Positions 6,949 through 29,589 of a DNA stretch of 32,132 bases are shown piece by piece. The stretch's first letter is position 1. Each line of letters begins with the position of its first letter. Origin of the DNA: an uncultured Monoglobus sp. (GTDB lineage Bacteria; Bacillota; Clostridia; Monoglobales; Monoglobaceae); assembly GCA_947585115.1 (NCBI GenBank), contig CANPWW010000023.1, positions 1 to 32,132 on the forward strand, in the 5' to 3' direction. The translations under genes were made by a program, and so were the position numbers. The notes below the pieces were generated by a model. That model ran no database searches, had not been told where the DNA came from, and was given only the letters and a program-made list of their open reading frames with translations.

Positions 6949-9900
6949 ATGAAAAGATTTTTAAGCTTAGCGTTGATAACAGCAATGATCGCGGCTTTGC
7001 TTCCGGCAAATTTTGTTAATGCTTACGATATGGGCAAGGTCGGCGAGTACCAAACAATTTCCGCGGGAGGCGAACATACAGCAGCGATAAAAACAGATAT
7101 ACCGGTTATTGCAAGTGCGGCAATTGTTGTCAGTGGCGAATGTGGCGCGCAAGGCAATAATGTTACATGGACATTAGATGATGCTGGTACACTTACGATA
7201 AGCGGTATGGGAGATATGGCAGATTATTCAGGAGGTCAACATGATGCTCCATGGAATAATTTTTATAAAGATATAAAAAAAGTTTCTATAACTAAAGGTG
7301 TGACAAGAATTGGAGATGAATCGTTTTCTAATAATTCCCAGAGAAATAGTGATACCCAAATAACAAGCGTAACCATTCCGGATAGTGTTACTTCTATTGG
7401 AAGTTGGGCGTTCTTTTGTTGCCGCAAATTAACCAATGTTAATATTCCTGATAGTGTCAAATCTATCGAAGCTTATGCGTTTCAGGGATGTAATAAATTA
7501 ACCAATATAAACATTCCCGAAGGTATTAATCATATTGAAAATGGCGTATTTATGGGCACTGGATTAAAAACTGTTCATATTCCGGACAGCATTACCGTTA
7601 TTGCTAGTCAAATGTTTCATGGCTGTGATGGATTAACCAGTATATACATTCCGGGCAGTGTTACTTCTATTAATTCTGATGCCTTTGGTAGCTGTTCTGG
7701 ATTAACGAATATATCTATATCAGACAATGTAACACGAATTGATGAGAATGCGTTTTACAATACAGCATACTATAATGACTCTACTAACTGGTTGGATGGA
7801 ATTCTATACATTGGACATCATCTCATTGAGTCCAAAGCACATGAAATAAACGGCGATATTATAATAAGAAATGGTACGAAATGTATTGCGGAAAGAGCGT
7901 TTTCAGATTGTGATAGATTGACAAGCGTAACGATACCCGACAGTGTTACAGCAATCAATTGGGCTGTGTTTTCCGGATGCAGCAGTTTAACAGACGTATA
8001 TTATTCCGGGACAGAACAACAATGGGAAAAAATAGAAATCAGTACCAACAATGATTATCTTAAAAAAGCTACTATTCATTATGTGAATGGCGGCACTTCT
8101 ACATTGCCCACGCCCACGCCGACTGACGTGCCTTCAAACAATGTAAAGATCGTCTCTCTGTCACCCGAAAATAATTCTGAATATGATGTATGGGATAAGC
8201 AAAAACTCACTTTGGAAATAGAGTTTGATCATGATATACAGGCTCTGGGCAGCGGAAAGATATATTTGCGCGACGGACTTTTTGACAATGTTGTGCGCGA
8301 GATCTCCGCCGAAAACGATAACAGTTTGGACGACAGATTCAGCTTTGATACAATTGGCAGAAGACGGCTTTATATTGATCTTTACACATATCCCGATCAA
8401 GCGGTGCTTTTCTGCGGCAATTCGTTTTACATAACAATGGACAGCGACGCGGTCATATTTAACGACGGTGTGGAGTTCTGCGGAATAAATGACAAAAACA
8501 CATGGAATTTTAAGATCGCGTTCGGGCTTACGCGCAATCATGATATGTTTTCGTTCACAAATACAGCGCAAAATTTCTTCCCTGATTCGGAATTAGAGTG
8601 GGACAGTAATCATAACGCGCATTTTAAAAACGGCAAGCAAAATCCTTTCCCGATAGCGAGCGAGGAAATAAAGAATAAAATCAAAGGAATAATAGGCGAT
8701 CACGAGTACGAAAAAATGACGTCAAAAAAGAAGGATTTCAGCGGCGCTTGTTTCGGTATGAGTATAGTAACATTATTAAGCAAAATGGAAATGATCGATA
8801 TTACTGATGTTAGCGTTAATGAACCTCCCGCTACAAATCTTCATAATATGGAGTTCCCGCGCGTTGGCACACAAGCCGGAGGCATAAGGGATATTATTAA
8901 TTATTATTATCTTTTGCAAAAAGTAGATAATTATGAAATGACGGGAATAGATGTATTAAAAGCAGATTACTTTGGCAACAAAGAAGAGTATAAAACCGTT
9001 TTGCGAGAAATAGTAGACAAAGGATTATCAATGCACGAAACAAAAATTCCGCTGTTGCTTAATTTTGGCTGGATGGATGATGCAATTCATACAAATTTAC
9101 ATACCGTGGTACTTCTGTCAGCCAAGGAATATGAAAACGGTAGTTGTGAATTATTGATTTATAATCCAAATAATACGATTTTAGAGACAATGTATATACC
9201 AAGTGATTTTTCAAATTTATTATATGATGAAAGTCATCTTGTAAGTTTAGTAAAGGCTGTGGACGTTACGGATATTGATCCCGATTGGCTTATCGGCGCA
9301 ACGGGAAAAACCTATCCGGCCGATACAGCGGCGGCTGCCGCGCCGACCGATCACGACACGCTTAGGGTCGTCGCTTACGGCGATTTTTCGATCACCAACG
9401 ACCGCAGCGAGACGCTTAACTACAACGGCGGATATATAACAGGAACGATGGAAATACTCGACGAGGATTTTGTTGACAGCGGCGACAATAATTATGTTGA
9501 GTTTGTGTATAAAGTGAACAAGAGCAACAAGTATACCTTCAGTTCAAAGGACACGCGCTCGGGCTGTACGGTCGACGGCGGAGACTCGTATATTTCTATA
9601 ACGGCTGACAATGCCGACAGCATTGTTATGGACAAAAAGGCCGGAATAACCGCGAGCGGAAACGGTCTTGACTACACGGCTTACGCCGCGACGCTCACGG
9701 GCGAAAATATGTTCTCGGTTTCGGGTGGAAACACCAACAACTTAAACATCGCATTGAGCGCCGACGGCTCGGCCGAGATCCAAGCCGACACTTTAAAAGA
9801 TGTTGAGTTTGAGTCGCTCTTTGAGGACAAATCGTTTGTGTTCGACAGTAACAGCGGAACCGCGGACGTTGTTGAGACCGAGGCCGGAGGACTGGCGATG

Positions 9901-10674
9901 CCCGATGTTGAGATCCACGACGAGACAACTTTTTCGAACATAATCAAAGAAAATAACGGCGGCGCGGAGGTGACATTCGCGAACAACACGGCGCAAAATC
10001 AAACGGGAACCGGGATCGTCGCCAAATACAACAATGACGGAGCTTTGATCGATATTGAGACGATCGGCCTGAATCTTTCGGACAACGAAAGCAAAACGGT
10101 TGTGTACGGCGAGGGTGATATAAAATACAAAGCCTTCGTTTGGGATAACATAGTTAACATGAAGCCGCTTAGTATCGCAGACTTTTTCCCCGATAATATA
10201 CAGGAAGTGTATAACGCCGAAGAATCGTCTGCTACGGAAAAGCCCAACGCCACAGAACAGCCGACTGTTACTCCCGTTCCGACGGCGACCGAGACGCCTT
10301 CTGATTTCGATCCGAAACCTACGGAAATACCAACTGAGGATTTTTCCATCGAAATCAGAGATTCGAATTTTAGTGCCGCTTACGATGAAATTATACCAAT
10401 TTATTTAAAGACCAAAACTCCGGGACAAACCATTGAGGGGTCACACCAATATATATTATGGGCGGCATACCTTGATAACGGGCAATGGAAACAAACAGTC
10501 GCAGAATACGCAGATGGCGGGACCGAATACTGGTTATATCAAACCAGTTTTGAAAAACTTGGAATTCCAAAAGGTCAAAAAAGTGTTACCCTTGCTTTTG
10601 CTCTGTTTCGGGCCGATAATTTTGTACAAGGTGCAGCATTGGCAGGTCAAACGGTTACTGTAAAGTTAAAATGA
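6949..10674 (+). CDS. Large secreted BspA-like LRR protein with putative cysteine peptidase domain
   Basis: 1241 residues, ATG 6949 behind AGGGAGGT. A Sec signal peptide covers residues 1-25 (cut near NFVNA). Next comes a lone RCC1-like fragment (ISAGGEHTAAIKT, about 38-50), then the BspA entry motif SGECGAQGNNVTWTLDD and TreP/BspA leucine-rich repeats to about residue 380. A linker PTPTPTD leads to an Ig-like domain (about 398-525). Residues about 540-790 look like a papain-fold peptidase: SGACFGMS with Cys601, LHTVV with His718 and YNPNN with Asn739. Beta-rich modules, a domain shared with the gene at 3-983 (about 990-1075), a Pro/Thr linker (about 1090-1130) and a C-terminal beta domain follow. 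It is probably a cell-surface or secreted adhesin/protease; no LPXTG anchor is visible. The first two thirds are AT-rich, the part after about residue 784 is GC-rich. Confidence 0.85.
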   Translation: MKRFLSLALITAMIAALLPANFVNAYDMGKVGEYQTISAGGEHTAAIKTDIPVIASAAIVVSGECGAQGNNVTWTLDDAGTLTISGMGDMADYSGGQHDAPWNNFYKDIKKVSITKGVTRIGDESFSNNSQRNSDTQITSVTIPDSVTSIGSWAFFCCRKLTNVNIPDSVKSIEAYAFQGCNKLTNINIPEGINHIENGVFMGTGLKTVHIPDSITVIASQMFHGCDGLTSIYIPGSVTSINSDAFGSCSGLTNISISDNVTRIDENAFYNTAYYNDSTNWLDGILYIGHHLIESKAHEINGDIIIRNGTKCIAERAFSDCDRLTSVTIPDSVTAINWAVFSGCSSLTDVYYSGTEQQWEKIEISTNNDYLKKATIHYVNGGTSTLPTPTPTDVPSNNVKIVSLSPENNSEYDVWDKQKLTLEIEFDHDIQALGSGKIYLRDGLFDNVVREISAENDNSLDDRFSFDTIGRRRLYIDLYTYPDQAVLFCGNSFYITMDSDAVIFNDGVEFCGINDKNTWNFKIAFGLTRNHDMFSFTNTAQNFFPDSELEWDSNHNAHFKNGKQNPFPIASEEIKNKIKGIIGDHEYEKMTSKKKDFSGACFGMSIVTLLSKMEMIDITDVSVNEPPATNLHNMEFPRVGTQAGGIRDIINYYYLLQKVDNYEMTGIDVLKADYFGNKEEYKTVLREIVDKGLSMHETKIPLLLNFGWMDDAIHTNLHTVVLLSAKEYENGSCELLIYNPNNTILETMYIPSDFSNLLYDESHLVSLVKAVDVTDIDPDWLIGATGKTYPADTAAAAAPTDHDTLRVVAYGDFSITNDRSETLNYNGGYITGTMEILDEDFVDSGDNNYVEFVYKVNKSNKYTFSSKDTRSGCTVDGGDSYISITADNADSIVMDKKAGITASGNGLDYTAYAATLTGENMFSVSGGNTNNLNIALSADGSAEIQADTLKDVEFESLFEDKSFVFDSNSGTADVVETEAGGLAMPDVEIHDETTFSNIIKENNGGAEVTFANNTAQNQTGTGIVAKYNNDGALIDIETIGLNLSDNESKTVVYGEGDIKYKAFVWDNIVNMKPLSIADFFPDNIQEVYNAEESSATEKPNATEQPTVTPVPTATETPSDFDPKPTEIPTEDFSIEIRDSNFSAAYDEIIPIYLKTKTPGQTIEGSHQYILWAAYLDNGQWKQTVAEYADGGTEYWLYQTSFEKLGIPKGQKSVTLAFALFRADNFVQGAALAGQTVTVKLK

Positions 10675-10787
10675 TGTATGCTAAACGAAGTTAGAATTTA
10701 TAGAATAATGTTTTATGCTTTTATTATTCCTGCATAAATAAACAATTTCACGCGGTTTGGTCTAAAATGTAGACATAAAACGCAGAT

Positions 10788-10821
10788 AAAACGGATAGAG
10801 CCTGATTTCTCTATCCGTTTT
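10788..10821. terminator. Bidirectional terminator between convergent units
   Basis: A perfect 13-bp stem (10788-10800 with 10809-10821), eight-base loop, with A-rich bases on the left and T-rich bases on the right. It can end both the BspA-like gene (plus) and the six-gene minus operon. Confidence 0.88.
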
Positions 10822-10880
10822 AAATTTCACCCTGTTTGGCGAACCTCGTGATTTATATTACTGTCTTATAGGAGACTGCC

Positions 10881-11438
10881 TCATCGCTGTCCTTTATCTT
10901 GCTGCTTTTCGAGATACTTGGCGGGCACGGCTTTTGTCAGCCAGATTTTGTTTTCAGAGAGATAGAACTTATATCCGTCGTTTGCCATTTTTCCGCTCAG
11001 GACCTTGTATATGACCGGTCTGCCGTGGCGCCTGCCAACCGATTCGGCGGTTTTGGTATCGCCAGACAGATGAACATACAGTCTGCCCTTTGGCAGCAAT
11101 CCATTTTTGTCGATCGAGCTCACGAATTTTTCGCCTGTTCCGTGCCACAAAAACTCGGGCGGCGCTGTTTCTTTAAGCTCAACGTCAACGTTTATCGAGT
11201 GGCCCTGGTTCGCGCGTATCAGCGTTTTGTCGTCATTGAACGAATAGCGCCCCTTGCTGTCTGTCCTCACGATCTCCTCGAGGATATCCATAGTCAGATT
11301 TATATGGCGCTTTTCCGAAACGCCGGCCAAAAGCTCGTCGACCTTCGCCCAGCCGTGTTCGTCAAGCTCGATCCCCGCCGCCTCGGGGTGGTGGCGCAGG
11401 ACCAGACTGATAAATTTACTTGTCTTTGTCAGGTTCAT
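10881..11438 (-). CDS. kptA: RNA 2'-phosphotransferase, KptA/Tpt1 family
   Basis: 185 residues from ATG 11438, six bases after GAGGTG; a GTG three codons earlier lies within that site and is unlikely to be the start. KptA/Tpt1 enzymes use NAD+ to remove an internal RNA 2'-phosphate, and family members have been shown to place ADP-ribose on 5'-phosphorylated nucleic-acid ends. The catalytic Arg-His-Arg-Arg set appears intact: Arg15-His16 in LVLRHHP, Arg64 in KGRYSF and Arg119 in GRLYVHLS. FLWHGT near residue 99 and RANQGHS near 75-81 also fit. Bacteria lack the tRNA-splicing pathway that supplies the yeast substrate, so its target here is unknown. It is the last gene of the operon, 24 bases after the Nudix-GNAT stop. 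Confidence 0.92.
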   Translation of the reverse strand: MNLTKTSKFISLVLRHHPEAAGIELDEHGWAKVDELLAGVSEKRHINLTMDILEEIVRTDSKGRYSFNDDKTLIRANQGHSINVDVELKETAPPEFLWHGTGEKFVSSIDKNGLLPKGRLYVHLSGDTKTAESVGRRHGRPVIYKVLSGKMANDGYKFYLSENKIWLTKAVPAKYLEKQQDKGQR

Positions 11439-11462
11439 ATATTTCACCTCATATTTTCGGAT

Positions 11463-12299
11463 TTATTTGTTTTCGCTGTTTGTCAAAAGTTTTTCCATAT
11501 ACACGCATTTAAAGGTGCCGCTGTGCGCCGTCTTGCTTTTGTTGTAGGAATATCCGAGCTTTTCGTAAAAGCCGACGGCCTCATCTCGGCTTGATATCTC
11601 GATCTTCTCAAAACCCGACTCGGCGATATGCTTTTCCGCCTCAAAGACCGCCAGCCGTCCAAGTCCCTTTCCGCGGTACTCGGGCAGCACCACGACTCTG
11701 CCGATCTCCGCGGTTTTGCCCGAGGTCTTAAACCATCTGCACGTGGCCGCGGGAAACTCGCCGTCGAGCAAAAGTATATAATTGCAGTCGGGGCCGTCAA
11801 TCTCGTCAAACTCCTCGCGCAGCGTGATCCCGTACTTCCTCGCCATCGCCTGTATCCGCACATAATAAGCTCCCGCCCGCTCAAATTCCTCCTTGACTCT
11901 GATAACTCGTATGTTATCGCGCAGCCGCTCGAGTATTTCTTTGTCCGCCGGGCAAAACGGATAATTTTCAATTTCAGATTTTAATACCCACTTTACATCG
12001 TTGTGGACTTTTTTGCGGATCGTGCCCGACGAAATGCGCGCCTTAAAAAACACGAATTTTATGTGCTTGTCGGGATATTGATAATCAAATTTTGTGAACT
12101 CTTTTAACACTTTAAGGTCTATCTCAAGCTCTTCGCGGCATTCGCGTATCACGCATTGTTCAAAGCTCTCGCCCGGCTCGCGTTTGCCGCCGGGGAACTC
12201 CCAAAGCCCGCCCAACGACGAGCCGGGAGCGCGTTTGCATATCAAAATTTCGCCGTTGTCATTTTCGATGATCGCGGCCGCGACTTCAATTTTTTTCAT
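11463..12299 (-). CDS. MutT-like Nudix hydrolase fused to GNAT acetyltransferase
   Basis: 278 residues. The N-terminal half (about 1-130) is a MutT-type Nudix domain, with LWEFPGGKREPGE and a nearly complete Nudix box (Gly38, Glu44, Arg52, Glu53, Glu56, Glu57); the usual Gly near the end of the box is Glu59. MutT-type enzymes hydrolyse nucleoside triphosphates such as 8-oxo-dGTP, and other Nudix enzymes cleave ADP-ribose or NAD derivatives. The C-terminal half (about 135-278) is a GNAT domain with the acetyl-CoA loop VVVLPEYRGKGLGRLAV and a typical ending AVGFYEKLGY. The start codon lies four bases after the helicase stop, with GGTGGG just upstream inside the end of the helicase gene. The acetylated substrate is unknown. 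The fusion, not a frameshift artefact, is supported by one uninterrupted frame. Confidence 0.87.
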   Translation of the reverse strand: MKKIEVAAAIIENDNGEILICKRAPGSSLGGLWEFPGGKREPGESFEQCVIRECREELEIDLKVLKEFTKFDYQYPDKHIKFVFFKARISSGTIRKKVHNDVKWVLKSEIENYPFCPADKEILERLRDNIRVIRVKEEFERAGAYYVRIQAMARKYGITLREEFDEIDGPDCNYILLLDGEFPAATCRWFKTSGKTAEIGRVVVLPEYRGKGLGRLAVFEAEKHIAESGFEKIEISSRDEAVGFYEKLGYSYNKSKTAHSGTFKCVYMEKLLTNSENK

Positions 12300-12303
12300 A
12301 GTG

Positions 12304-15300
12304 TTAACCCACCAATCTGTTTGTTTTTCTCAAGTATTTTGCCGGAATCGGCTTTTGGAGCCGCCAAACGATATTCATCGGCGCGCTGCCGCTGCTGCTC
12401 ACAAAATCCGCGAGACCCAAAAACGTGTAGCCGGGCGTCAGACCGAAAGAGTCGCGTTTTTTGTCGCGGACGAAAAGCATGATCTTGTTGTCGGTCTGCT
12501 TATGATTAATATAGCGGCGGCCGGTTTTGGATTCGGGCGTTGTTGTGCTTTGACTCTGCCAATGGAACAAAGTGTCGCTTATTGAGTAATCGTTATACAT
12601 CGTGCTGGGCGAATAATCCTTGTCGGATTTATTGAGGGTTATCATAAATATGTCAGTCTTTTTCTCCTCGATATATTTTACGCCCTCGCGCATCGCCGAC
12701 GGGTTCGCGACATCAAGCGCCAGAAGAAGCTGAGCCTTTGAGTACGTGCAGTACAGATCCAGCGGGCACTCGTAATCAAGTTTGACTTCGTCGTCAATAA
12801 AGTCTATATGATCATAGTTGTATCGCAGCAGTTCGATCAGCTCTTTGCGCATAACAACGGATTTTTTGATTTTCCTGATTCCGTCCGCCGCGCTCTCAAA
12901 TCCGATCTCGCTGTCGGTCTTATTCCACACGGTGTAATTAAACATTTTTAACATTCTGATCTCATTATCCGAAAAGTCGACAGGCTCGGGATTTTCAAGC
13001 GCGCCGAGCAAAAATGATATCCAGCGCCTTGAATCTATTGAGCATATGCGCGAGAACGCGCTTGTCATTATTTTTTCGAGCTCATCGTCAAAGTCGTCGA
13101 TCACGCCCGCCTCAGCGCAAAGTCTTGAGAACGAATTGTTTTTATATATCGTTCGTATATCAAGGTGGTGGTACGAAACGAAGTTTTCAAGATTCAGTTC
13201 AAGCCCGCTGTCGTCAGTGAAGTTCGCTATGCGCAAAACCAATCCCGCACGCTTGTTAAAGGAATTCTTTATGTTGCCGAGCACGTAGTCTTTCGCTTTT
13301 TTCTCAAGCTGAATATAGCAGCCCGAGGGTACCGACACAAAGCCCTCCCGAAGCTCGCGCTGCACGCTTTTCGCGGTGTTTGAAAGCAGGGCGGCGAATT
13401 TTTCCTCAAAGTTGTAGCGGCTGTTGGCTTGTCCGATAAAATCGAGCACGGTCAGGCAGTCCTTGCCTTCGGAAAGTCTCAGACCGCGGCCGAGCTGCTG
13501 CAAGAACACGGTCAAGCTTTCGGTCGGGCGCAGAAACAGAACGGTGTTGACTTCGGGAATATCAACGCCCTCGTTATAGATATCGACGACAAATATGAAT
13601 TTTATCTCTCCCGAGACCAATCTCGATTTGGCTGTTTTGCGCTCCTCGTCGCTCGATTGTCCCGTAAGATGGATTGACGGTATTTTGCAGGCTTTAAAGC
13701 ATTTGGACATATATTCTGCATGTTCAACAGACACGCAAAAGCCGAGGCCTTTAACCGCGTCAATATCGGTGACATATTTCTTTACGGAGCTGATAATCAA
13801 GTCGGCGCGCCTTTCGGCGGCGAATTCTTTCATCGTGTACACATTTGACAGTTCTTTTTTGTCGTATCCGCCGCGAGACCACTTCATTGCGCTCAAATCG
13901 ACTGTGTCGGTCACACCGAAGTATTGAAACGGGCAAAGCAGCTTGCGCTCGATCGCTTCCGGAAATCTTATTTGCGCGGCTATGCGGTTGTCAAAATATT
14001 TTAAAATATTTTTGCCGTCCATGCGTTCCGGCGTGGCGGTCAGACCCAAGAGAATCTTCGGCTTATAGTGGGAAAATAATCTCTTGTATGACGGGGCCGC
14101 CGCGTGATGGAACTCGTCAACTATTATGAAATCATAATAATTTTCATCCGTTTTTTCGTAAAACGCTTGACTGTTGAAGGTTTGGATCGACATGAACAGA
14201 TGCGAAATGTCATCGGGCTTGTAGTTTCCGACAAACAGGCTGCCAAAGTTCGCGTCTTTGAGCACGCCCCTGAACGTTTCTATGCTCTGCTCCAAAATTT
14301 CCTCTCGGTGAGCCAAAAACAAAAGCCTGTTTGGGCTGTTCGGGTTTTGCCTGCAAAAGTTTTTGTAGTCAAAGGCGGAGATCACGGTCTTGCCCGTGCC
14401 CGTCGCCGCAACGACAAGATTTTTGAACCTTCCGCGAACGCGGCGCTCGGCCTGCAGCTTGTCCAGGATCTGCTGCTGGTACGGATAAGGGATTATATCA
14501 AATATGTATCTTTGACTATTCTCGCCGGAATGTTTCTCGGAGCTCAGAGCAAGCTCGAGATGTGTTTTTTCCGATTCCGAATAGTTTTCAAATTCGATGG
14601 AATTCCAATAGCTTTCAAATGTCGCGCTTATCTTTTGAATAACGTCGGGCAGGTCCTTGGCCGTGACCTTGACGTTCCACTCAAGACCGACGGATATGGC
14701 GGCGTTTGAAAGGTTTGATGAACCCACATACGCCGTGGTGAATCCGGTGTCTCGATAAAACACGTAGGTTTTCGCGTGGAGCCTTGTGCGCTTTGTGTCA
14801 TATGAAATTTTGATTTCCGTATTTTTTAGCTTGCGCAGTTCCTCGATCGCCTTAACGTCGGTGGCGCCCATGTATGAGGTGGTGATTATCCGCAGTTTTC
14901 CGCCGTTTCGCGTAAAATCGCGGAGCTCGTCAATGATGAGCCTCAGTCCGCTCCATTTTATGAACGACACCAGCATGTCTATCTTGTTTGCCGAAAGTAT
15001 TTCTTTTTTGAGCTCGGTGAACATGCTCGGCTCAAAAGCCGCGCCTGTGAACAGCGAGCTGTGGGCGACGGACGTTTCCGGGCGGACGATATCAGGCTTT
15101 GAATTGAAGGCGTTTGCCGAGTTCCGAACATCAAACAACGCCATAAGCTGCTTTCCGTCATCGCTTACGCTCATATTTCTGTTGTCGCTCGAGAGCGTCG
15201 CTATTATGTCGTTGATTAATTCGATTTGGTCAATCAGCTTGCCTCCGTCGTCCTTGATCATGTTCAAGCGGTTTTCGATTACGGACGCGGCGTAGCGCGA

Positions 15301-15420
15301 CAAAACCATAGGCGCTTCCGCTGTGTCAATGTCTGCGGAGATCGCCTTCTGTTCTGTTTGATTTGCCAAATAGTTTTCGATATATCTGTTTATAACCTGT
15401 TCATAAAGTCCGGACTTCAA
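12304..15420 (-). CDS. PLD-nuclease / SF2 helicase / DUF3427 protein
   Basis: 1038 residues. TTG 15420 is the likely start, since AGGAG lies 11 bases upstream and no in-frame ATG is better placed. Domains: an N-terminal region; a phospholipase-D-type nuclease domain with one HxK motif (His215, Lys217) followed by GSSN (from Gly233); an SF2 helicase core with Walker A ATGTGKT (Lys344), a DEFH box (435-438), LTATPER, and motif VI QQLGRGLR (Arg645); and a C-terminal DUF3427 domain (about 700-1038) with TLFHWQSQS, TGRRYINH and LGLADFV. Such proteins are annotated as type III restriction-like or DEAD/DEAH helicases; several are suspected of DNA repair or phage defence but the class is poorly characterised. 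The single HxK motif would need dimerisation to form an active site. It starts seven bases after the esterase stop, inside the operon. Confidence 0.9.
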   Translation of the reverse strand: MKSGLYEQVINRYIENYLANQTEQKAISADIDTAEAPMVLSRYAASVIENRLNMIKDDGGKLIDQIELINDIIATLSSDNRNMSVSDDGKQLMALFDVRNSANAFNSKPDIVRPETSVAHSSLFTGAAFEPSMFTELKKEILSANKIDMLVSFIKWSGLRLIIDELRDFTRNGGKLRIITTSYMGATDVKAIEELRKLKNTEIKISYDTKRTRLHAKTYVFYRDTGFTTAYVGSSNLSNAAISVGLEWNVKVTAKDLPDVIQKISATFESYWNSIEFENYSESEKTHLELALSSEKHSGENSQRYIFDIIPYPYQQQILDKLQAERRVRGRFKNLVVAATGTGKTVISAFDYKNFCRQNPNSPNRLLFLAHREEILEQSIETFRGVLKDANFGSLFVGNYKPDDISHLFMSIQTFNSQAFYEKTDENYYDFIIVDEFHHAAAPSYKRLFSHYKPKILLGLTATPERMDGKNILKYFDNRIAAQIRFPEAIERKLLCPFQYFGVTDTVDLSAMKWSRGGYDKKELSNVYTMKEFAAERRADLIISSVKKYVTDIDAVKGLGFCVSVEHAEYMSKCFKACKIPSIHLTGQSSDEERKTAKSRLVSGEIKFIFVVDIYNEGVDIPEVNTVLFLRPTESLTVFLQQLGRGLRLSEGKDCLTVLDFIGQANSRYNFEEKFAALLSNTAKSVQRELREGFVSVPSGCYIQLEKKAKDYVLGNIKNSFNKRAGLVLRIANFTDDSGLELNLENFVSYHHLDIRTIYKNNSFSRLCAEAGVIDDFDDELEKIMTSAFSRICSIDSRRWISFLLGALENPEPVDFSDNEIRMLKMFNYTVWNKTDSEIGFESAADGIRKIKKSVVMRKELIELLRYNYDHIDFIDDEVKLDYECPLDLYCTYSKAQLLLALDVANPSAMREGVKYIEEKKTDIFMITLNKSDKDYSPSTMYNDYSISDTLFHWQSQSTTTPESKTGRRYINHKQTDNKIMLFVRDKKRDSFGLTPGYTFLGLADFVSSSGSAPMNIVWRLQKPIPAKYLRKTNRLVG

Positions 15421-15427
15421 TATATTT

Positions 15428-16111
15428 TCATCTCCTGTTCAATATCCACGTAAGGCCTTTGGCGAGGCGCAGGTCGGTGTTTTGGTAGTGGTTGCCTGGG
15501 TTTAGCTCGAATATGGTTTTTATGCCGTTTTGTTTATAGAATGAGCATAGCTCCTCGGTGTGGCGCTCGGTTTGGCTCAGGTATTCGTTTTTTGTCCGGC
15601 TTTCGGTGTCTCCGAGGGATAGGTAGACCGCGTCGGGCTTTTTGGCGAATTCGCGCGTTTTCGCGAAATCCGCGAATTTTGGGTACCAGAGCGAGCCCGA
15701 GGCGGACACCGCCGCCGAAAACGCGTCTGTAACATACGGCGAGTACAGCGCGAAAAGACCGCCCATCGAATATCCCGCGATCACGCGGCGGTTCGGTTTT
15801 CCGATCATTTCCTCAACCCGCGGAATTATCAGCCCGGTCAGGCGCCTCGCGTACTCGCCCGCCTCGCCCGTAAAATGGTCGTCCTTGGAAACGACGGGCC
15901 CGTGTGACCACGGTGACAGCTCCTCGTCCCATCTGAGCCCAGAGATCGAGACCAGATCAAACGGCGCGCAGCCGAGCTTTTCGCATTTGTCAAGTATAGC
16001 GTCTCCGACCTCCATGTACATATTCGCGTAAACCGCCGGGGCGTTTTCGGCGCCGCATTTATAGATGCAGATCTGCTTGTTGTCGATAGTTTGTTTGATA
16101 AGCTCGCTCAT
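15428..16111 (-). CDS. Alpha/beta-hydrolase esterase (PF00756-type)
   Basis: 227 residues from ATG 16111. This ATG overlaps the GNAT stop as ATGA, a classic translational-coupling junction; the frame is open further upstream but that part lies on the GNAT and adenylation genes. The serine nucleophile is Ser115 in AGYSMGG, the acid probably Asp168 in SLGDTE, and the histidine His208 in NPGNHYQ. The fold and motifs match the esterase-D/enterochelin-esterase group, which cleaves short esters or thioesters of small molecules. There is no signal peptide, so it is cytosolic. Coming after an adenylation enzyme and an acetyltransferase, it may act on an acyl or aminoacyl ester made by them; that is inference. 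Confidence 0.85.
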   Translation of the reverse strand: MSELIKQTIDNKQICIYKCGAENAPAVYANMYMEVGDAILDKCEKLGCAPFDLVSISGLRWDEELSPWSHGPVVSKDDHFTGEAGEYARRLTGLIIPRVEEMIGKPNRRVIAGYSMGGLFALYSPYVTDAFSAAVSASGSLWYPKFADFAKTREFAKKPDAVYLSLGDTESRTKNEYLSQTERHTEELCSFYKQNGIKTIFELNPGNHYQNTDLRLAKGLTWILNRR

Positions 16112-16587
16112 AGCTGTTCCTCCTTCTTGTCTTTGAGTATCATATAGTCCTTCATATCCCGAAAACCGAGGCTTTCGTACATCGGCCGCCCTTCGGCCGT
16201 GGCCTCGAGATATATCTTCGTGATGTTTCGCGCCTTCGCGCAGCTTATAAGATATTCCGCCACGGCTTTCCCGACGCCGTGTCCGCGGTAATTTTCTTTG
16301 GTGTATATATTCATCAGATAAGCGCAGCGGCCGCTCGGGTTGTCGGGCGAGGGCATCTCGCGGTAAAGGCACAGCCCGCCGCAGCCGACAGCATTGCCCG
16401 AAATTTCCGCGAACACGGCGATGTGCTCTCCGCTCGGTATTGCCTTTTGGTAATATTTGAGGTTTGCCTCGTATAAGCCGCTCATATCCCCGTCCTGCGG
16501 AATATCGAAAACATGGCGCAGAACTTCAACGCGCCATTTCATAAGCGCGCCGATCTCGCTTATATTGGCTTGTCTGATTTTCAGCAT
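16108..16587 (-). CDS. GNAT family N-acetyltransferase
   Basis: 159 residues from ATG 16587, which has AAGGA six bases upstream and overlaps the adenylation-gene stop as ATGCTGA. A longer open frame reaches 17055 but is antisense-frame shadow of the adenylation gene. GNAT features are LKIRQANISEIGALMKW at the start, the central AVGCGGLCLYRE strand, the acetyl-CoA loop IYTKENYRGHGVGKAVAEYL and the ending MYESLGFRDMKDYMIL. This subtype is usually annotated only as GNAT; substrates range from amino acids to antibiotics and proteins. Its coupling on both sides to other genes of the operon suggests a joint pathway. Confidence 0.88.
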   Translation of the reverse strand: MLKIRQANISEIGALMKWRVEVLRHVFDIPQDGDMSGLYEANLKYYQKAIPSGEHIAVFAEISGNAVGCGGLCLYREMPSPDNPSGRCAYLMNIYTKENYRGHGVGKAVAEYLISCAKARNITKIYLEATAEGRPMYESLGFRDMKDYMILKDKKEEQL

Positions 16588-18056
16588 ACGTATCCTTCTT
16601 TCATAATTATCGGCAGAGCGTCGGTGTCGACCTTGCCGTTGGCGTTCAGCGGCAGGTTGGTCATGCGCACGAAAAACTCGGGGATCATGTAGTTCGGCAG
16701 GAACCTCGCCATCTCTTTTTTCAGCGTTGACAGATGCGCCTTCGGCTGTTTCAGCACGATGTACGCCGTCATGTAGTGCAGGTTCTGCTCGTCGGTATAC
16801 GGCCTGACGACGGCCTTTTCGATTTCGGGGCATTGGCACAGCACATTCTCGACCTCGCCGATCTCGACCCGCTTGCCCAAAATCATGATCTGCGAGTCCT
16901 TGCGGTGCAGAAACGCGATGTTGCCGTCGGGCAAAAAATATCCCATATCCCCGCTGCGGTACAGCACTGAGCCGTCCGCCCGGGTCACAAAGGCCTCGTT
17001 TTCCTTTTCGCGGCCGCCGACATATCCCGCCGAAACGCCGCCGCCCAGAATACATATCTCGCCCGTCTCGCCCGAAGCTGTGGGGCGCATATTTTCATCC
17101 AGTATCTCGATCCGTGTTCCGAGGACGGGTTTCCCTATCGGATATGTTCCGTCGGGCAGCGCGTTGGTTCCGCTTATTCGGCAGTATGATGCGCACACCG
17201 TCGTCTCCGAGGGGCCGTAGGTGTTGTATATCTCCGCCTTGCCTATCAGGTTGGTAACATAGCTCTCGCGCAGCACGTCGCCGCCGCTTATCAGCAGCCG
17301 AAGGCATTTCGGTATTTTCGGCAGGTGGTTCATCTCAAGCAGCAGATAAGGAAAGCCGCTGATTTGAGTGACGTTGTTTCGCTCAACGAACCTCATCAGG
17401 GCGCTGATGTTTTTCTTGGTCTCCGCCGACGGAATCGCCAGCGCGGCGCCCGACAGCAGAGTGGTGAAAACCTCCTCCGCGAATATGTCGAACGAGCAGA
17501 CCGAGTATTGGAGCATTGTGTCGCTTTCGTTTGTTTTGAACTCGTTTTGAAATGCCCGCACATAGTGGCAGACATTCCTGTTGCGCACCGCCACACCCTT
17601 CGGCTCTCCGGTGGAGCCCGAGGTATAGAGTATGTAGGCCAGATCGTCCGGCTTTGCCGAGGATCTTATATCCGCGTTTTCCGCATTCATGCCCGGGTCG
17701 ACTATTATCGTCTCAAGGCCTTCGGCTTTGGCGGCGTGACGGCTGTTTGTGATGATAACGTCCGCCTCGGCGTCTCTCATCATAAAGCGTATCCGCTCCT
17801 TCGGGAAAAACGGCTCGGCGGGAACATACGCTTTCCCGACTTTAAGCGCGGCAAAGATCGCCGCCGTCATTTCAACGGTATGGTCCATTATGATGCCGAC
17901 CCTGCGCGCCGACTTGGGGATCCTCGCGGCGATCGCGTTTATCATGCAGTCAAGCTCCGCCCGCGTCAGCCCGCGGCTCTCATCAAACACCGCAATCGCG
18001 CCCGGCGCCTGCCCCACCTTTTCATAAAAAAGTTCATAGATCACATTATTATTCAT
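16581..18056 (-). CDS. Stand-alone amino-acid adenylation enzyme (NRPS A-domain/DltA-like)
   Basis: 491 residues, the size of a free adenylation domain with both core and lid. ATG 18056 follows AAGGAG. Core motifs: A3 LYTSGSTGEPKG (143-154), A4 with Asp190 in SFDIFAEE, A5 NTYGPSETT (278-286), A7 YRSGD (366-370), A8 around GKRVEIGEVE (394-403), and A10 NANGKVD with the catalytic Lys475. The A4 aspartate is the residue that normally pairs with the alpha-amino group, so an amino-acid substrate is likely. The enzyme would make an aminoacyl-AMP from ATP. No carrier protein, condensation or thioesterase domain is encoded nearby, so the acceptor is unknown. It is the first gene of the six-gene operon behind a near-consensus promoter. 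Confidence 0.88.
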   Translation of the reverse strand: MNNNVIYELFYEKVGQAPGAIAVFDESRGLTRAELDCMINAIAARIPKSARRVGIIMDHTVEMTAAIFAALKVGKAYVPAEPFFPKERIRFMMRDAEADVIITNSRHAAKAEGLETIIVDPGMNAENADIRSSAKPDDLAYILYTSGSTGEPKGVAVRNRNVCHYVRAFQNEFKTNESDTMLQYSVCSFDIFAEEVFTTLLSGAALAIPSAETKKNISALMRFVERNNVTQISGFPYLLLEMNHLPKIPKCLRLLISGGDVLRESYVTNLIGKAEIYNTYGPSETTVCASYCRISGTNALPDGTYPIGKPVLGTRIEILDENMRPTASGETGEICILGGGVSAGYVGGREKENEAFVTRADGSVLYRSGDMGYFLPDGNIAFLHRKDSQIMILGKRVEIGEVENVLCQCPEIEKAVVRPYTDEQNLHYMTAYIVLKQPKAHLSTLKKEMARFLPNYMIPEFFVRMTNLPLNANGKVDTDALPIIMKEGYVC

Positions 18057-18088
18057 GAAAAAGCTCCTTTGAATAATCGTTAGTATTT

Positions 18089-18117
18089 ATTATACTATGT
18101 TTTGGAAAAATATGCAA
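18089..18117 (-). promoter_or_regulatory. Promoter of the six-gene operon
   Basis: Read on the minus strand: -35 TTGCAT (18117-18112), 17-bp spacer, perfect -10 TATAAT (18094-18089). It lies 33 bases before the ATG at 18056. No other strong promoter was seen at the tight junctions inside the operon. Confidence 0.8.
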
Positions 18118-24936: not shown

Positions 24937-25020
24937 TCACCTCGCTTGCTCGTCTATGATGTTTTTGATCGTGTCGCAAATAATTTCCCCAGCCGTGAGC
25001 GGCGCCGTTTTCCCCGGAGG
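24937..25020 (-). pseudogene. dpaA: 3' remnant of dpaA (dipicolinate synthase subunit A)
   Basis: Directly upstream of dpaB (stop five bases before the dpaB TTG) the minus strand encodes PPGKTAPLTAGEIICDTIKNIIDEQAR, written here in two pieces as PPGKTAPLTAGEIICD and TIKNIIDEQAR. This resembles the C-terminal tail of DpaA, where a PGK-AP-TAG motif precedes the final helix. Upstream of about 25020 the sequence turns AT-rich and no DpaA-like sequence continues; the same frame runs to a stop at 25081-25083 without a plausible start. I infer that dpaA is cut here by the accessory island. The match to DpaA is from memory and needs an alignment. Confidence 0.6.
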
Positions 25021-25080
25021 AAATGTAACAAGTTGAAAAATTTTCAGGTTAAGATAACACGATATTTTCAGCCTGTAGTT

Positions 25081-25644
25081 TTAGTTAAATTTACTCTGTA
25101 TCAAGTTTAATAATTTATCTAATTTTTTAAAGCAAATATATTTTTTATATTCTATGCTATTTGGGGAAAGCGCAAATTCCTTGAGTATATCCATTAATGG
25201 CTCATATATTTTGTTATCAGAATAAAGTTTCGTTACAAACTTATTGTTTTCCGAAGATATGAGCTTGTAATATTTAATGAATTCGATTTCATTTATTCTA
25301 ACTTCAACTTCCTCATTATTGACAATTCCTTCATAAACTTCCTTGCAAATTTTGTCATATCCCATCACAATACCAACAGGAACTTCAAAAAAACGTGCTA
25401 ATTCTGTTATTTCACGCCAAGTAAATGATAACTTATTTTTAATTTTTTTACAAAAGGTTGATTTATCCATTCCGATTGCTTCTGCAACCTCTTTTTGCGT
25501 AATTCTCGGCACAGGTGTTGTATCACCATTCTGTTTTTTATTAATAGCTATACGATTTTCTTTAATTTCGCACAGCATATTAAAGGTATCTTTAAAATTT
25601 GCATTATCCACATAGTTGTAATTTGTATTATTATTGTTCATCAT
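25081..25644 (-). CDS. HTH (XRE-like) regulator with C-terminal unknown domain
   Basis: 187 residues from ATG 25644 with AAAGGAG upstream. After an Asn-rich start, residues about 48-95 form a Cro/CI-type helix-turn-helix (ITQKEVAEAIGMDKSTFCKKI, given as its two helices ITQKEVAEAIG and KSTFCKKI, then ITELARFFEVPVGIVMG). The C-terminal 90 residues are charged and helical, with no recognised domain. It starts 15 bases after the Rep stop, so the two form an operon. It likely regulates copy number, excision or expression of the island. The AT-rich codon use matches the island, not the core genes to the left. Confidence 0.78.
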   Translation of the reverse strand: MMNNNNTNYNYVDNANFKDTFNMLCEIKENRIAINKKQNGDTTPVPRITQKEVAEAIGMDKSTFCKKIKNKLSFTWREITELARFFEVPVGIVMGYDKICKEVYEGIVNNEEVEVRINEIEFIKYYKLISSENNKFVTKLYSDNKIYEPLMDILKEFALSPNSIEYKKYICFKKLDKLLNLIQSKFN

Positions 25645-25659
25645 TTTAGTTCTCCTTTC

Positions 25660-26448
25660 TTATTTCGCAATAAATTGCATATATCTGATTTTATTTATTT
25701 TTTTCATATCATCTGATGTGATATTAATTTGTTTTTTATAATTTACTTGTTTATCTTTAACAAGCGAATTAATATTTTTAAATTTTGTGTATTTTTTATC
25801 AATTTTCATATCTCGTGAATGTTCATAAATTCGCATATTTTTGGGGTAGTATTTAATTCTATGCTTTTTGTCTTTATGCGAAATATCAAAGTACCACGAT
25901 AGTTTATCAATATCATATATTGGCTTAACATTTACGATTTCACCCGCTTTCCACATTGAACGTACTTCTTCTTCGGTGATGTTAAAATCACCACCGCTTA
26001 ATTTCTTTATAATGCAATGAATATGCCATGAACCTTTTTCGTCGGGCTCTTTGATATATATATATCTGCATTTGCCATATTTTCGCATTATTTTTCTCAT
26101 AAAATACTTAAAATCATTAGATATTTTTTCAGGTTCAGCCATGTGACCGGAATAGGTTAGTGTAATAAATCGTTCTGTTTTATCACCGCTAAAATAACCC
26201 GAAATATATATCCTGAGTCTTTTACATTGTTTAGTTAGTGATTCTATTGATTTAACCTCCTTTTCTTTGAAATCCAAAACTTCACCGGTATCCGTATTAA
26301 CATATTCTTGCTTTGAAATACGTTTTACAGGCGGGCGTTTAGGTTTGTTGTCGTTTGCGACTATTTCTGTATATCTTGGTGTATTATACACAGACACATA
26401 GTCATCAGGATTAATTTCCTGAAAATTCTTTTGTAAATTTTTCGCCAT
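25660..26448 (-). CDS. Rolling-circle replication initiator-like (HUH) Rep protein
   Basis: 262 residues from ATG 26448, preceded by a full AAAGGAGGTG; codons further upstream in frame lie before this site. HUH-endonuclease features are the motif 1-like RFITLTYSG (about 93-101) and the metal-binding His pair in SWHIHCII (His142, His144), with an intervening KEPDEKG loop. A catalytic tyrosine must lie C-terminal, possibly Tyr186 in LSWYFDI or Tyr200/201 in IKYYPKN; I cannot decide. Such proteins nick a double-strand origin and start rolling-circle replication of small plasmids, phages or integrated elements. Here it sits at the island edge with an HTH gene downstream. Confidence 0.75.
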   Translation of the reverse strand: MAKNLQKNFQEINPDDYVSVYNTPRYTEIVANDNKPKRPPVKRISKQEYVNTDTGEVLDFKEKEVKSIESLTKQCKRLRIYISGYFSGDKTERFITLTYSGHMAEPEKISNDFKYFMRKIMRKYGKCRYIYIKEPDEKGSWHIHCIIKKLSGGDFNITEEEVRSMWKAGEIVNVKPIYDIDKLSWYFDISHKDKKHRIKYYPKNMRIYEHSRDMKIDKKYTKFKNINSLVKDKQVNYKKQINITSDDMKKINKIRYMQFIAK

Positions 26449-26775
26449 TTTTACACCTCCTTTTATTGGCAAAATTGTTGGCCGCAAACATGGATTCACA
26501 TAATAATAATGGTTGGGTGGTACCAAAATTATTTGAAACGGATTTTTTATTAAAATTTTTTAGCAAATTAAGGTTTTTACGGCAATATAACTAAAAATTT
26601 AATTATAAAATGACAGAATTAAATTCCTTTGTTGATTTAAATGCTAAAATCTTAATACTAACAGAATCGAATCTACATCAATTTCCTAAATATACAAGTC
26701 GATTTTTTCTTTGATATATTATTATATACATTTTTTGACAATTTTATTGCATTTTTGAGAATATTAGTATTTAAT

Positions 26776-26815
26776 TAAAAAAACCGCAGCAGTCAAATTT
26801 ATTGACTACTGCGGG
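26776..26815 (-). terminator. Terminator of the unknown/UDG-like cassette
   Basis: On the minus strand a 13-bp stem with one mismatch (26814-26802 with 26796-26784) precedes seven T residues (26783-26777). The rest of 26449-26775 is AT-rich, noncoding as far as I can see, and is the natural place for the Rep promoter and origin; I could not pinpoint either. Confidence 0.88.
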
Positions 26816-26856
26816 ATAAAATCGATATATAATGTGTTTTGCTATCTGTATTAAAG

Positions 26857-28008
26857 TTAGTATTTCAAATGTTTAATATATTCCGGAAGATCATACGGTG
26901 TGAGTATCGGCGGCAATTCAGCTTTGACGCCTAAACAATAATCACTGTCTTTAGCGTATTCGGTTATCAGTTTCCATATTTCATGAACTTTTTTACTGTT
27001 GTTAACAACCACTTGTTTTCCGTAAGTATTGATGGCCGGGTTAAAATTCCTATCATCTATACGGTTAATATTTTTCAAAATATCCGTTCCTGAACCTATC
27101 CTCAGTTTTGGTTTTGCCGTATCTTCAGACGGATTACAGAAAAAACAACTATACATACCGTTATATGGATTGTCGTAGGTTGCTCCGATTATAATATCAA
27201 ATTGATATTTCTCATTGTCTAATTTGGCAATACTTCCGTCATGCCGCACAAAAACATATTTAAGCACTGTGTTATAATATAATCTGTCCGAGGGGTTTTT
27301 GCTGTTTTTAAATCTTTCGATAGTCTGTTTAATAGTATTCTCGTCATAACTGATTATTTTTGAGATAACGAACATAGTATCGATCTCATAATACTGTCTT
27401 TTTTTATAACCGGTCCCGAACAGGATCACCGAGCCTTCTTTCAGCATTTTAGTTTGGTCTTGTTTACAGCATGTATAATAAAAATTATCGCCCCAAATAT
27501 AAGGGTCTGTATTTTGAAGATTGGAATTATTGAGGCGGTCATATATTTTTACCTTTTCATTAGTATATATGTGTATGTCCGGAACGCATAAATTATTATG
27601 GTCCGAATTTTTTACATCAATAATGCTCTGCACCTGTTTATTGTCTGACAAAGAATATTCTTTGTTTTCAACAAATACAGGATAGTTTATATATTTCGGC
27701 TCAGCCTCGGCAGGGTTTTTGTTTATGATTTTTGCAATGCTGTTCGGTTCCCATTCTCCCCAAAAATCAACATATCCTTCATGTAATTCGTCATTTTTTA
27801 AGTATTCGGCTTTGGACCTCAGATATTTTCTTAAGTGGTTGTTTGCCGCATAATAAAAATTCGGCTTGCCCTCATTGGCTCTTTTAAATCGGTAATTCCA
27901 CTCTTTAAAATAATAGTCTGTTCCCGCAATTTTATTAGCCGCCTTATGTTCACCGCCGGGATGAGTGAATTGAAAAAACCCCGTGTTTATTCTGTTTTTT
28001 CTATTCAT
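26857..28008 (-). CDS. Unknown protein of the two-gene cassette
   Basis: 383 residues from ATG 28008, with AAAGGTG upstream, 13 bases after the UDG-like stop. I do not recognise the family. Conspicuous stretches likely to be functional are FQFTHPGGEH near residues 13-22, YVDFWGEWEPNS near 79-90, DPYIWGDNFYYTCCKQ near 168-183 (two adjacent cysteines), ILFGTGYKKRQYYEIDTMFVI near 195-215 (split by eye into a hydrophobic strand and the acidic IDTMFV), and SCFFCNPSE near 285-293. There is no signal or membrane segment. Many aromatic, Gly and acidic residues suggest an enzyme or nucleic-acid-binding protein. Its partner gene suggests a DNA- or nucleotide-related role; that is only inference. Confidence 0.7.
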   Translation of the reverse strand: MNRKNRINTGFFQFTHPGGEHKAANKIAGTDYYFKEWNYRFKRANEGKPNFYYAANNHLRKYLRSKAEYLKNDELHEGYVDFWGEWEPNSIAKIINKNPAEAEPKYINYPVFVENKEYSLSDNKQVQSIIDVKNSDHNNLCVPDIHIYTNEKVKIYDRLNNSNLQNTDPYIWGDNFYYTCCKQDQTKMLKEGSVILFGTGYKKRQYYEIDTMFVISKIISYDENTIKQTIERFKNSKNPSDRLYYNTVLKYVFVRHDGSIAKLDNEKYQFDIIIGATYDNPYNGMYSCFFCNPSEDTAKPKLRIGSGTDILKNINRIDDRNFNPAINTYGKQVVVNNSKKVHEIWKLITEYAKDSDYCLGVKAELPPILTPYDLPEYIKHLKY

Positions 28009-28021
28009 AATTTAACACCTT

Positions 28022-28804
28022 TTATATAAATCTTTCGCAAATATCACTGAATGTTGTTTTAAGAAAATCTTCTTTAAGCTGCAGCGGATTACCTTGAACA
28101 TTACTTCCGAAAATCACTACTGTGTCGTCTGTTTTAAAGGGGATAATTCTGTAGGGGTATTTTGCGTTTTCGGGTGTATATGAATATTCTTTAAGAGGCT
28201 CGGAGCCTTGATTCAAGAAAGTATTTTTAAAAATGTTAAAATCACCCGAAAAAATAACAACATCCGGTTTGAGATACGCTAAGAGTTTTTTAAACAGATC
28301 AATGTTTGTTAAATCCTCTTTTGATTCGGCAGACAATCTTCCCCATGTGGGAGATGTGGCAACGGCAGTATATATGTCAATATGTATTGCACAGTTTTGG
28401 GCTTTTCCGTTATAGTAACTGACGGAGGGTTTCAAAAAACCGAGAGCACGTTCCAACCACTTAAACCAACTATTATACGGCTCTGTCTCAAAATAAGAAT
28501 TAAGCGCCTCACATAATATCTCTTTGTCATCATCATCGAGAGTGTCATTTTTGTATATTGTTTCGGCTTTTGGAAATCTGAATAATATTTTATGGCTTTT
28601 GTCATTTTTGTCCTCAGAGGGTGAAAATTCCCTATTCGACGGATTGAGAGCCACGGTCACAACCTTTAAATCTGATTTTTTGTACGTTTCAATGTCGCCG
28701 AACCATATAATCGGGATCGACGGCGAAACCACATATTCTTTGTTTTTATGCTTTTGAAAATCACTCCAATACATTTCAATTATTTCTTTAAGTATTTTGT
28801 CCAT
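28022..28804 (-). CDS. Possible uracil-DNA-glycosylase-fold protein
   Basis: 260 residues from ATG 28804, eight bases after AAAGGTG; a longer frame to 28861 crosses the promoter and is rejected. The pattern is reminiscent of the UDG superfamily: an early strand ending VVTVALNPSNREFSP (compare the G-x-N-P motif), a helical WFKWLERALGF segment, IDIYTAVATSPTWGRLS, LKPDVVIFSGD and a late VVIFGSNVQGNPLQ where family members have their second active-site motif. The match is structural guesswork and key residues differ from classical enzymes, so other alpha/beta folds are possible. It is the first gene of a two-gene cassette with a near-consensus promoter and dedicated terminator. Confidence 0.65.
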   Translation of the reverse strand: MDKILKEIIEMYWSDFQKHKNKEYVVSPSIPIIWFGDIETYKKSDLKVVTVALNPSNREFSPSEDKNDKSHKILFRFPKAETIYKNDTLDDDDKEILCEALNSYFETEPYNSWFKWLERALGFLKPSVSYYNGKAQNCAIHIDIYTAVATSPTWGRLSAESKEDLTNIDLFKKLLAYLKPDVVIFSGDFNIFKNTFLNQGSEPLKEYSYTPENAKYPYRIIPFKTDDTVVIFGSNVQGNPLQLKEDFLKTTFSDICERFI

Positions 28805-28843
28805 GATCAGCACACCTTTCTTGGAAATATTTTTATCACATTT

Positions 28844-29578: not shown

Positions 29579-29589
29579 ATAAACATCTC

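Follow-up and report, generated by a model that had tools for sequence, protein, structure and literature searches.

A six-gene operon of an uncultured Monoglobus species is probably a five-gene operon with a captured SauUSI-like/Nudix cassette

Layout and signals of the six-gene operon

A six-gene operon was analyzed on a contig of an uncultured Monoglobus sp., a gut bacterium (GenBank assembly GCA_947585115.1, contig CANPWW010000023.1). The window is this entire contig of 32,132 bp, which belongs to a draft genome (G000) of 2.34 Mb in 125 contigs that is 90% complete. In order from gene 1 to gene 6, the operon encodes a free-standing adenylation domain, a GNAT acetyltransferase, an esterase, a nuclease-helicase resembling the restriction enzyme SauUSI, a Nudix-GNAT protein and the RNA 2'-phosphotransferase KptA. 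An earlier note, made from the sequence alone, had read the set either as serving defense or repair through a modified aminoacyl or nucleotide signal, or as two modules recently joined. We favor, at a probability of about 0.8, a composite in which a five-gene host operon has captured a defense cassette of a SauUSI-like enzyme and a Nudix protein, the latter probably acting on modified deoxycytidine triphosphates (dCTPs). The odd set of six genes would then most likely represent two systems in one operon and no single new system.

All six genes lie on the minus strand with open reading frames (ORFs) and belong to the families originally named, as determined with Pfam and NCBIfam (Table 1). From gene 1 to gene 6, the junctions consist of a 7-base ATGCTGA overlap, a 4-base ATGA overlap and gaps of 7, 4 and 24 bases. 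Coordinates, profiles and the fully complementary 14-bp arms of the terminator agree with the families, packing and perfect terminator described earlier. Gene 5 as a whole, a MutT-type Nudix followed by a GNAT, spans 11463-12299 on the minus strand. For KptA, whose profile (PTS_2-RNA) scored 152.1 bits against a cut-off of 26, the ATG start lies at the 11438 end, and a GTG start at 11447 is likewise open. Purifying selection was detected on each of the seven parts of the operon, with ratios of nonsynonymous to synonymous divergence (dN/dS) of 0.06-0.16 in G000-G009, the one pair for which all seven were computed. Since homologous operons occur in relatives and the parts are under purifying selection, the operon is more than a chance arrangement.

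Table 1. Coordinates of the operon, its signals and the inserted cassette in the window
Feature	Position	Strand	Basis
Promoter-like site of host operon	18089..18117	-	TTGCAT 18117-18112, 17-bp spacer, TATAAT 18094-18089
Host gene 1 (gene 1), free-standing nonribosomal peptide synthetase (NRPS)-type adenylation domain, 491 aa	16581..18056	-	Pfam AMP-binding, TIGR01733, motifs
Host gene 2 (gene 2), GNAT acetyltransferase	16111..16587	-	Pfam Acetyltransf_1 8.5e-15
Host gene 3 (gene 3), alpha/beta-hydrolase esterase, siderophore-hydrolase fold, 227 aa	15428..16111	-	Pfam Esterase
Inserted cassette, 3,522 bp	11916..15437	-	blastn break-points vs L021, L022; junction sequences
Cassette gene 1 (gene 4), SauUSI-like type IV restriction enzyme	12304..15420	-	PADLOC mREase_IV, PDB 7clg
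Cassette gene 2 (gene 5, N-terminal 129 residues), MutT/NudG-type Nudix	11913..12299	-	TIGR00586, PDC-S07
Host gene 4 (gene 5, C-terminal part), GNAT	11463..11912	-	Pfam Acetyltransf_1 4.2e-15; free-standing in G002, G011
Host gene 5 (gene 6), RNA 2'-phosphotransferase KptA/Tpt1	10881..11438	-	Pfam PTS_2-RNA 2.1e-44
Bidirectional terminator	10787..10822	-	arms 10787-10800 / 10809-10822, 14 bp, 100% complementary

The single near-consensus promoter proposed in the earlier note stood only in part. The site has a perfect -10 box and a 17-bp spacer, but its -35 box matches TTGACA at only 3/6 positions, and a consensus promoter scan that needed at least 4/6 matches did not list it. Both boxes are identical in 6/6 genomes compared. 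Nor is it the only candidate: the same scan returned 25 promoter-like sites in the region against 7.7 expected by shuffling, including a 9-of-12 site at 15448-15419, directly ahead of gene 4.

Occupied and unoccupied sites in the genus

Gene 4 and the esterase were compared across 60 genomes, comprising the window's own and 59 relatives. A relative of gene 4 (E 1e-50) was found in 8/60 genomes and a relative of the esterase (E 1e-3) in 9/60, the window's genome included in both counts. Placement of the window's proteins on the fetched loci gave three operon arrangements. G000 and G009 (locus L018) carry adenylation domain, GNAT, esterase, gene 4, Nudix-GNAT fusion and KptA. G002 (L021) and G011 (L022) carry adenylation domain, GNAT, esterase, GNAT and KptA, with no gene 4 and no Nudix half; their fourth gene, a free ORF of 152 aa, matches residues 129-277 of gene 5 only. 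G003 and G010 carry adenylation domain, GNAT, esterase, a CDP-alcohol phosphatidyltransferase (Pfam 2.5e-35 in G003), gene 4 and a Nudix unfused to GNAT, and no second GNAT or KptA is present at this locus. The Nudix that stands alone has 129 aa in G003, and its longest ORF in G010 has 152 aa with an upstream start. KptA was found in 4/12 genomes of the genus, each time after a second GNAT (GNAT2), and these are the four genomes with GNAT2 in the operon. Conserved co-occurrence of the six families in order, which the earlier note had proposed to look for, was limited to G000 and G009 among the 60 genomes.

The edges of the insertion were located by comparison with the unoccupied operons. DNA identity to G002 and G011 ends at window position 15438 and restarts at 11915 (blastn), and 3,522 bp of the window (about 11916-15437) stand in place of the 39-bp gap between esterase and GNAT2 in G002. 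At the left junction, the esterase of G002 ends in ..ATATTGAAATAA (stop), whereas the window reads ..ATATTGAACAGGAGATGA; gene 4 starts with TTG after AGGAGATGA. Thus, the last codons and stop of the esterase lie within the ribosome-binding site of the cassette. At the right junction, the Nudix of G003 ends in ..GACAACTAA, GNAT2 of G002 starts with ATGAACATACGC, and the window reads ..GATAACATACGA. Nudix and GNAT meet at a shared AAC, over which the right edge is ambiguous, and neither the stop codon of the Nudix nor the start codon of the GNAT is left. The insertion junctions of G000 and G009 are identical. The insert has no long terminal repeats, only short chance-like ones. The seam had been placed between genes 3 and 4, dividing the operon into three upstream and three downstream genes; the insert comprises gene 4 and the N-terminal half of gene 5 only.

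In a DNA tree of the adenylation, GNAT and esterase genes, G000 and G009 formed a sister pair (bootstrap 92) nested within G002 and G011, and G003/G010 branched outermost. The GNAT2-KptA tree gave no resolution (47). Because the sisters are nested inside G002 and G011, one insertion suffices for G000 and G009. Synonymous divergence (dS) between these two genomes is similar in host and cassette genes, at 0.20-0.31 (gene 4, 0.227; adenylation gene, 0.200), which indicates that the insertion predates their split. The two joined modules of the earlier note hold, and "recently" is relative, the insertion being older than that split. Neither host nor cassette genes of G000 and G009 appear decayed, as judged from their sequences.

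G003 and G010 branch outside all others on the operon tree, and their copy of the operon also contains a related cassette, so the cassette could be ancestral and have been cleanly lost from G002 and G011. This we consider improbable. The gaps of G002 and G011 are homologous, and both include the ribosome-binding site and start codon of GNAT2, which the window does not have; the junctions of the occupied operons also differ. The share of fourfold sites that differ between G000 and G003 is 57/196 in the adenylation gene and 32/84 in the esterase, as against 228/334 in gene 4 and 20/27 in the Nudix, a contrast that the codon-usage gap between these genomes may itself inflate. For gene 4, GC content at third codon positions is 0.28 (G003) and 0.61 (G000); for the adenylation gene it is 0.70 and 0.73, respectively. 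These counts indicate that the history of the cassette differs from that of the operon. With clean loss disfavored by the shared gap, the third-position GC content and the fourfold sites, the data suggest a second, independent capture of a related cassette by the same operon in G003/G010.

Gene 4 was also surveyed beyond the genus, using the best 80 of at least 575 confirmed SauUSI-like loci from named organisms (the named loci below), with flanks of up to 5 kb. A single six-gene system, with genes 4-6 under the control of an aminoacyl or nucleotide signal that genes 1-3 produce, would fit the tight packing, the conserved promoter box and the finding of related cassettes in this operon in two lineages. 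We nevertheless give it almost no credence. Genes 1-3 occur without an adjoining gene 4 in G002, G011, G018 and G417 and were not found in the flanks of 79/80 named loci (the exception is G010), so that the two gene trios, whose rarity as neighbors was named in the earlier note as the refuting outcome, are indeed seldom found together. Further, KptA and GNAT2 are part of the operon without the cassette. The single signaling system was rejected on the grounds that both modules occur apart, and the composite of host operon and captured cassette was retained.

Taken together, these comparisons suggest the following course of events. A five-gene chromosomal operon (adenylation domain, GNAT, esterase, GNAT2 and KptA) with a conserved promoter box would have taken in a two-gene cassette that displaced the short gap between esterase and GNAT2. 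The reading frame of the esterase would then have closed within the ribosome-binding site of the cassette, and the Nudix would have become translationally fused to the second GNAT through the insertion. The host operon may also provide the transcript of the cassette, as the spacing of the genes suggests. The case shows how a seemingly novel operon can originate, with a defense cassette set between two genes, a stop codon taken over and the next gene fused while the parts are still selected. It also warns that function should not be read from operon membership alone and that the Nudix-GNAT protein should not be treated as a designed fusion.

The SauUSI-like enzyme and its Nudix partner

Gene 4 carries the Pfam domains PLDc_2 (phospholipase D, PLD), ResIII, Helicase_C and DUF3427 (9.1e-24), with an RE_NgoFVII PLD domain match at 9e-09, and it matches the PADLOC family mREase_IV at 1.8e-225 (model PDLC03659, 748.9 bits; PDLC03658, 334 bits). 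With an 11-row profile, PDB 7clg (SauUSI) was matched at 6.5e-135 and was the sole solved structure at E 1e-60. The order of parts is an N-terminal extension, the PLD nuclease with HxK at 215-217, a superfamily 2 (SF2) ATPase and a DUF3427/SRA-type C terminus. The PLD motif H215-A-K217 is followed by GSSN, and the SF2 motifs comprise Walker A AATGTGKT at 338, DExH DEFH at 435 and motif VI QQLGRGLR at 641. W954 aligns with Trp868 of SauUSI, as counted by hand; H215, K217 and W954 are invariant in 11 aligned sequences. Foldseek placed 7clg first for the predicted structure of gene 4, a poor model (predicted local distance difference test, pLDDT, 64.1; predicted template modeling score, pTM, 0.40) that adds little beyond the sequence.

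In the available text of PMC7913695 and PMC3874153, SauUSI is described as cleaving DNA that carries 5-methyl- or 5-hydroxymethyl-cytosine; PMC7913695 adds that it requires modified DNA for action and gives Trp868 a proposed role in stacking against the flipped base. Gene 4 shares with SauUSI the PLD nuclease HxK, the SF2 ATPase, the C-terminal DUF3427/SRA-type domain and the stacking Trp. It differs in its N terminus, which is longer by about 90 to 100 residues (query residue 146 corresponds to chain residue 53), in being paired with a Nudix and in lying inside a metabolic operon. NgoAVII and CglI likewise combine a PLD nuclease with an SF2 ATPase, but these are described as two-subunit enzymes with a B3 target domain, whereas gene 4 is one chain with DUF3427 (PMC7913695). 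A RadD-like DNA-repair helicase that is no restriction enzyme is a very improbable identity for gene 4. The NCBIfam RadD model was matched at 3.4e-27 and RadD structures were matched in the PDB; however, the model score was 95 bits against a cut-off of 720, and SauUSI 7clg is far closer, spanning nuclease, motor and C terminus, with the PLD HxK present. Score and domain coverage thus ruled this candidate out. Relatives of gene 4 also occur on plasmids: 16 PLSDB records matched at E 1e-80, and coverage reached 80% or more in 8 of these.

The N-terminal part of gene 5 is a Nudix protein with an intact Nudix box (GX5EX7REXXEE). It scored 121.5 bits against the NCBIfam MutT model TIGR00586 (cut-off 97.9) and matched PADLOC PDC-S07 at 2.9e-45. 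It adjoins the mREase_IV gene with a 4-base gap and so forms a PDC-S07 plus type IV pair. Such co-localization is already known: a 2026 Streptococcus suis paper that uses the PADLOC labels reports PDC-S07 and type IV restriction-modification (RM) genes within 20 genes of each other in 23/23 occurrences (PMC12813430). The pair in the window resembles it in its PDC-S07 match beside mREase_IV and differs in that the insertion has joined its Nudix to an unrelated GNAT; the main text of PMC12813430 does not use the word Nudix. No stated mechanism for the SauUSI-like/Nudix pair was found among the open-licence papers listed.

The association recurs beyond the genus. With three Nudix queries, a Nudix was found near 28/80 named loci, all 28 on the same strand as gene 4, at distances within 500 bp in 22, of 500-1000 bp in 3, of 1000-1500 bp in 2 and of 2.3 kb in 1; none lay beyond 2.5 kb in the flanks. 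Among the 66 named loci with at least 500 bp of flank on either side, 17 have a Nudix within 150 bp. In the phylum, 29 gene-4 loci (L065-L093) were fetched from 41 genomes with a match, and a Nudix was present at 8/29, on the same strand in 7 and tail to tail in L093. The side varies, the Nudix being upstream of gene 4 in some loci and downstream in others. On a Nudix tree, built from few columns with an unsettled bootstrap and with 2 of its 42 linked rows representing one locus fetched twice, the linked label has to change 10 times, and well supported branches force at least 6 of these changes. Several Nudix lineages have paired with gene 4 independently.

In 27/28 linked named loci the Nudix ORF has 125-152 codons, and a functional Nudix-GNAT enzyme is for this reason not favored. 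The exception is L140:8150-9130 of Butyrivibrio sp. NC2002, where the SauUSI-like gene is followed by a protein of 326 aa that joins the Nudix to a methyltransferase domain. At six loci (L096, L101, L108, L111, L116 and L171), a same-strand Nudix lies 0.6-2.3 kb off, and the stretch between may hold extra cassette genes.

For substrate, the closest comparison is with E. coli NudG/Orf135 and MutT. NudG/Orf135 is described as hydrolyzing 5-methyl-dCTP with a reported kcat/Km about 100-fold above that of MutT (available text of PMC10742078 and PMC3744803). The window's Nudix shares with these enzymes the family and the Nudix box and has the Asp of NudG at the column of MutT Asn119, but its scores favor the MutT model TIGR00586. 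This Asp is present in 42/42 Nudix rows linked to gene 4, and equally in the unlinked controls given below.

On the example of SauUSI, the SRA-type C-terminal domain of gene 4 would bind 5-methyl- or 5-hydroxymethyl-cytosine in incoming DNA, the SF2 motor would run and a PLD nuclease dimer would cut. The Nudix, with less certainty than attaches to the nuclease, may hydrolyze 5-methyl-dCTP and 5-hydroxymethyl-dCTP, and would either keep modified bases out of the cell's own DNA, sparing the host from gene 4, or starve phages that make them. That gene 4 cuts DNA with these bases and that the Nudix removes the matching dCTPs is the most likely division of labor. More broadly, and only as a tentative proposal that we would not yet back at even odds, SauUSI-like enzymes and linked Nudix proteins may constitute a two-part restrict-and-sanitize system that polices base identity in both nucleotide pool and polymer, the cassette spreading by slotting into running operons.

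Two other roles for the Nudix were considered, each of them rather unlikely. It could act on the phage side alone, destroying phage-made 5-hydroxymethyl-dCTP or other modified deoxynucleotides as a second line of defense with no self-protection. The same pairing data would fit this role, but removing the precursors of the modified DNA that SauUSI needs (PMC7913695) would presumably blunt its partner. Alternatively, with a similarly small chance, the Nudix could be an ordinary MutT-type cleaner of 8-oxo-dGTP that travels with the nuclease and has no common task. Its best curated match is TIGR00586, and genes for similar Nudix proteins are widespread in the phylum (65/199 genomes at E 1e-10). 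Against this stand the enrichment directly beside the nuclease, the several independent pairings, the 23/23 co-localization in S. suis and the Asp at the Asn119 column, though unlinked controls share the Asp.

Several observations weigh against the proposed capture and the roles given to the two cassette proteins. The full HxKx4E nuclease motif is not present in gene 4, in which Y222 aligns with E126 of SauUSI, and the protein is therefore named SauUSI-like rather than a SauUSI. The Nudix falls below the thresholds of both PRK10546 (NudG type; 92.8 against 156) and PRK10776 (MutT; 96.8 against 148). The Asp at the Asn119 column also occurs in 27/27 controls (of 29 loci from the best Nudix matches) without gene 4 within 1.5 kb, judged unlinked on flanks of that length only; the residue was consequently dropped as proof of cytosine specificity. 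Because no Nudix was found with the three queries at 52/80 named loci, the partner is not obligatory. The control with neighbors of type I enzymes is weak, with a Nudix at 0/10 loci, which are fragments from 7 genomes. The 9-of-12 site ahead of gene 4 makes read-through from the operon promoter uncertain. Finally, that one operon took up related cassettes in two lineages may point to a functional tie, which the composite reading sets aside. The recurrent SauUSI-Nudix pair is the most interesting remainder of the analysis, and it raises the question of whether a modification-dependent enzyme needs a guard of the nucleotide pool against salvaged or phage-made modified cytosine that would mark the host.

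Host genes and neighborhood

The adenylation gene matched Pfam AMP-binding at 1.9e-69 and TIGR01733 at 341.6 bits (cut-off 317.4), with adenylation motifs present. Its specificity code, read by eye, is presumably D-I-E-S-I-G-T-V. On this reading it matches 6/8 positions of the lysine code of BacB, and the gene in G018 has the same look. The BacB-Lys code is given as DAESIGSV in PMC3207962. The operon contains no carrier protein gene. In the window's own genome the carrier family PF00550 is found in 7 places, which by eye are a fatty-acid acyl carrier protein beside fab genes, a carrier beside its own AMP ligase and five in long ORFs on contigs C67 and C105; none was tied to the operon, and a genomic carrier partner for the adenylation domain was set aside. 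A separate possible operon of the same genome (L222:3889-7059) encodes, by eye, a condensation-like protein, a free carrier (PF00550) and an AMP-ligase-like protein.

The esterase matched Pfam Esterase at 4e-05 (24 bits, cut-off 22). In 12 aligned sequences S115 and H208 are invariant and D168 nearly so. Its structure model (pLDDT 94.7) gave as top Foldseek matches the siderophore hydrolases 6guo/6gud (EstA/EstB) and the IroE-like 3gff, and also a BES protein. It resembles the IroE-like, BES and EstB siderophore hydrolases in fold and in the Ser-Asp-His conservation pattern, but identity is only about 16-20% in the listed matches. An esterase relative (E 1e-30) was found in 8/398 phylum genomes, the window's included. 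Among the seven others the adenylation gene adjoins the esterase in G417; it was not found within four ORFs of the esterase in the other six, nor in G059. In G018 and G417 the trio is ordered esterase-adenylation-GNAT. The adenylation-GNAT-esterase trio is probably a separate module of small-molecule metabolism; a link with basic amino acids or with siderophore-like esters is possible but a guess.

In G009, G002 and G011, the contig that carries the homologous operon also encodes Csn2, upstream of the operon. In L021 and L018, a CRISPR-like array with repeats spaced by 66 bp stands between Csn2 and the operon, and Cas9 in L022 and Cas2 in L021 were confirmed by Pfam. Given Csn2 and the CRISPR-like arrays, the operon locus of these three genomes is a defense neighborhood. 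In the window, TrkH/TrkA lie upstream of the operon instead of Csn2, and Csn2 had no match in the window's genome, which is 90% complete.

Scans of the window for tRNA genes and Rfam families gave no matches. Positions 25000-31000 are AT-rich (GC content about 0.28-0.35; most of the window is near 0.5). This block contains a rolling-circle replication initiator at 25660-26526 (REP_ORF2-G2P 2.8e-13, phrog_3419 3.9e-16), while its ORFs at 26857-28008 and 28022-28861 had no PHROG matches; the block may be what is left of a phage, or a small replicon that has integrated. Elsewhere on the contig, 6949-10674 and 31029-31943 each encode a leucine-rich-repeat protein of the BspA type (LRR_5).

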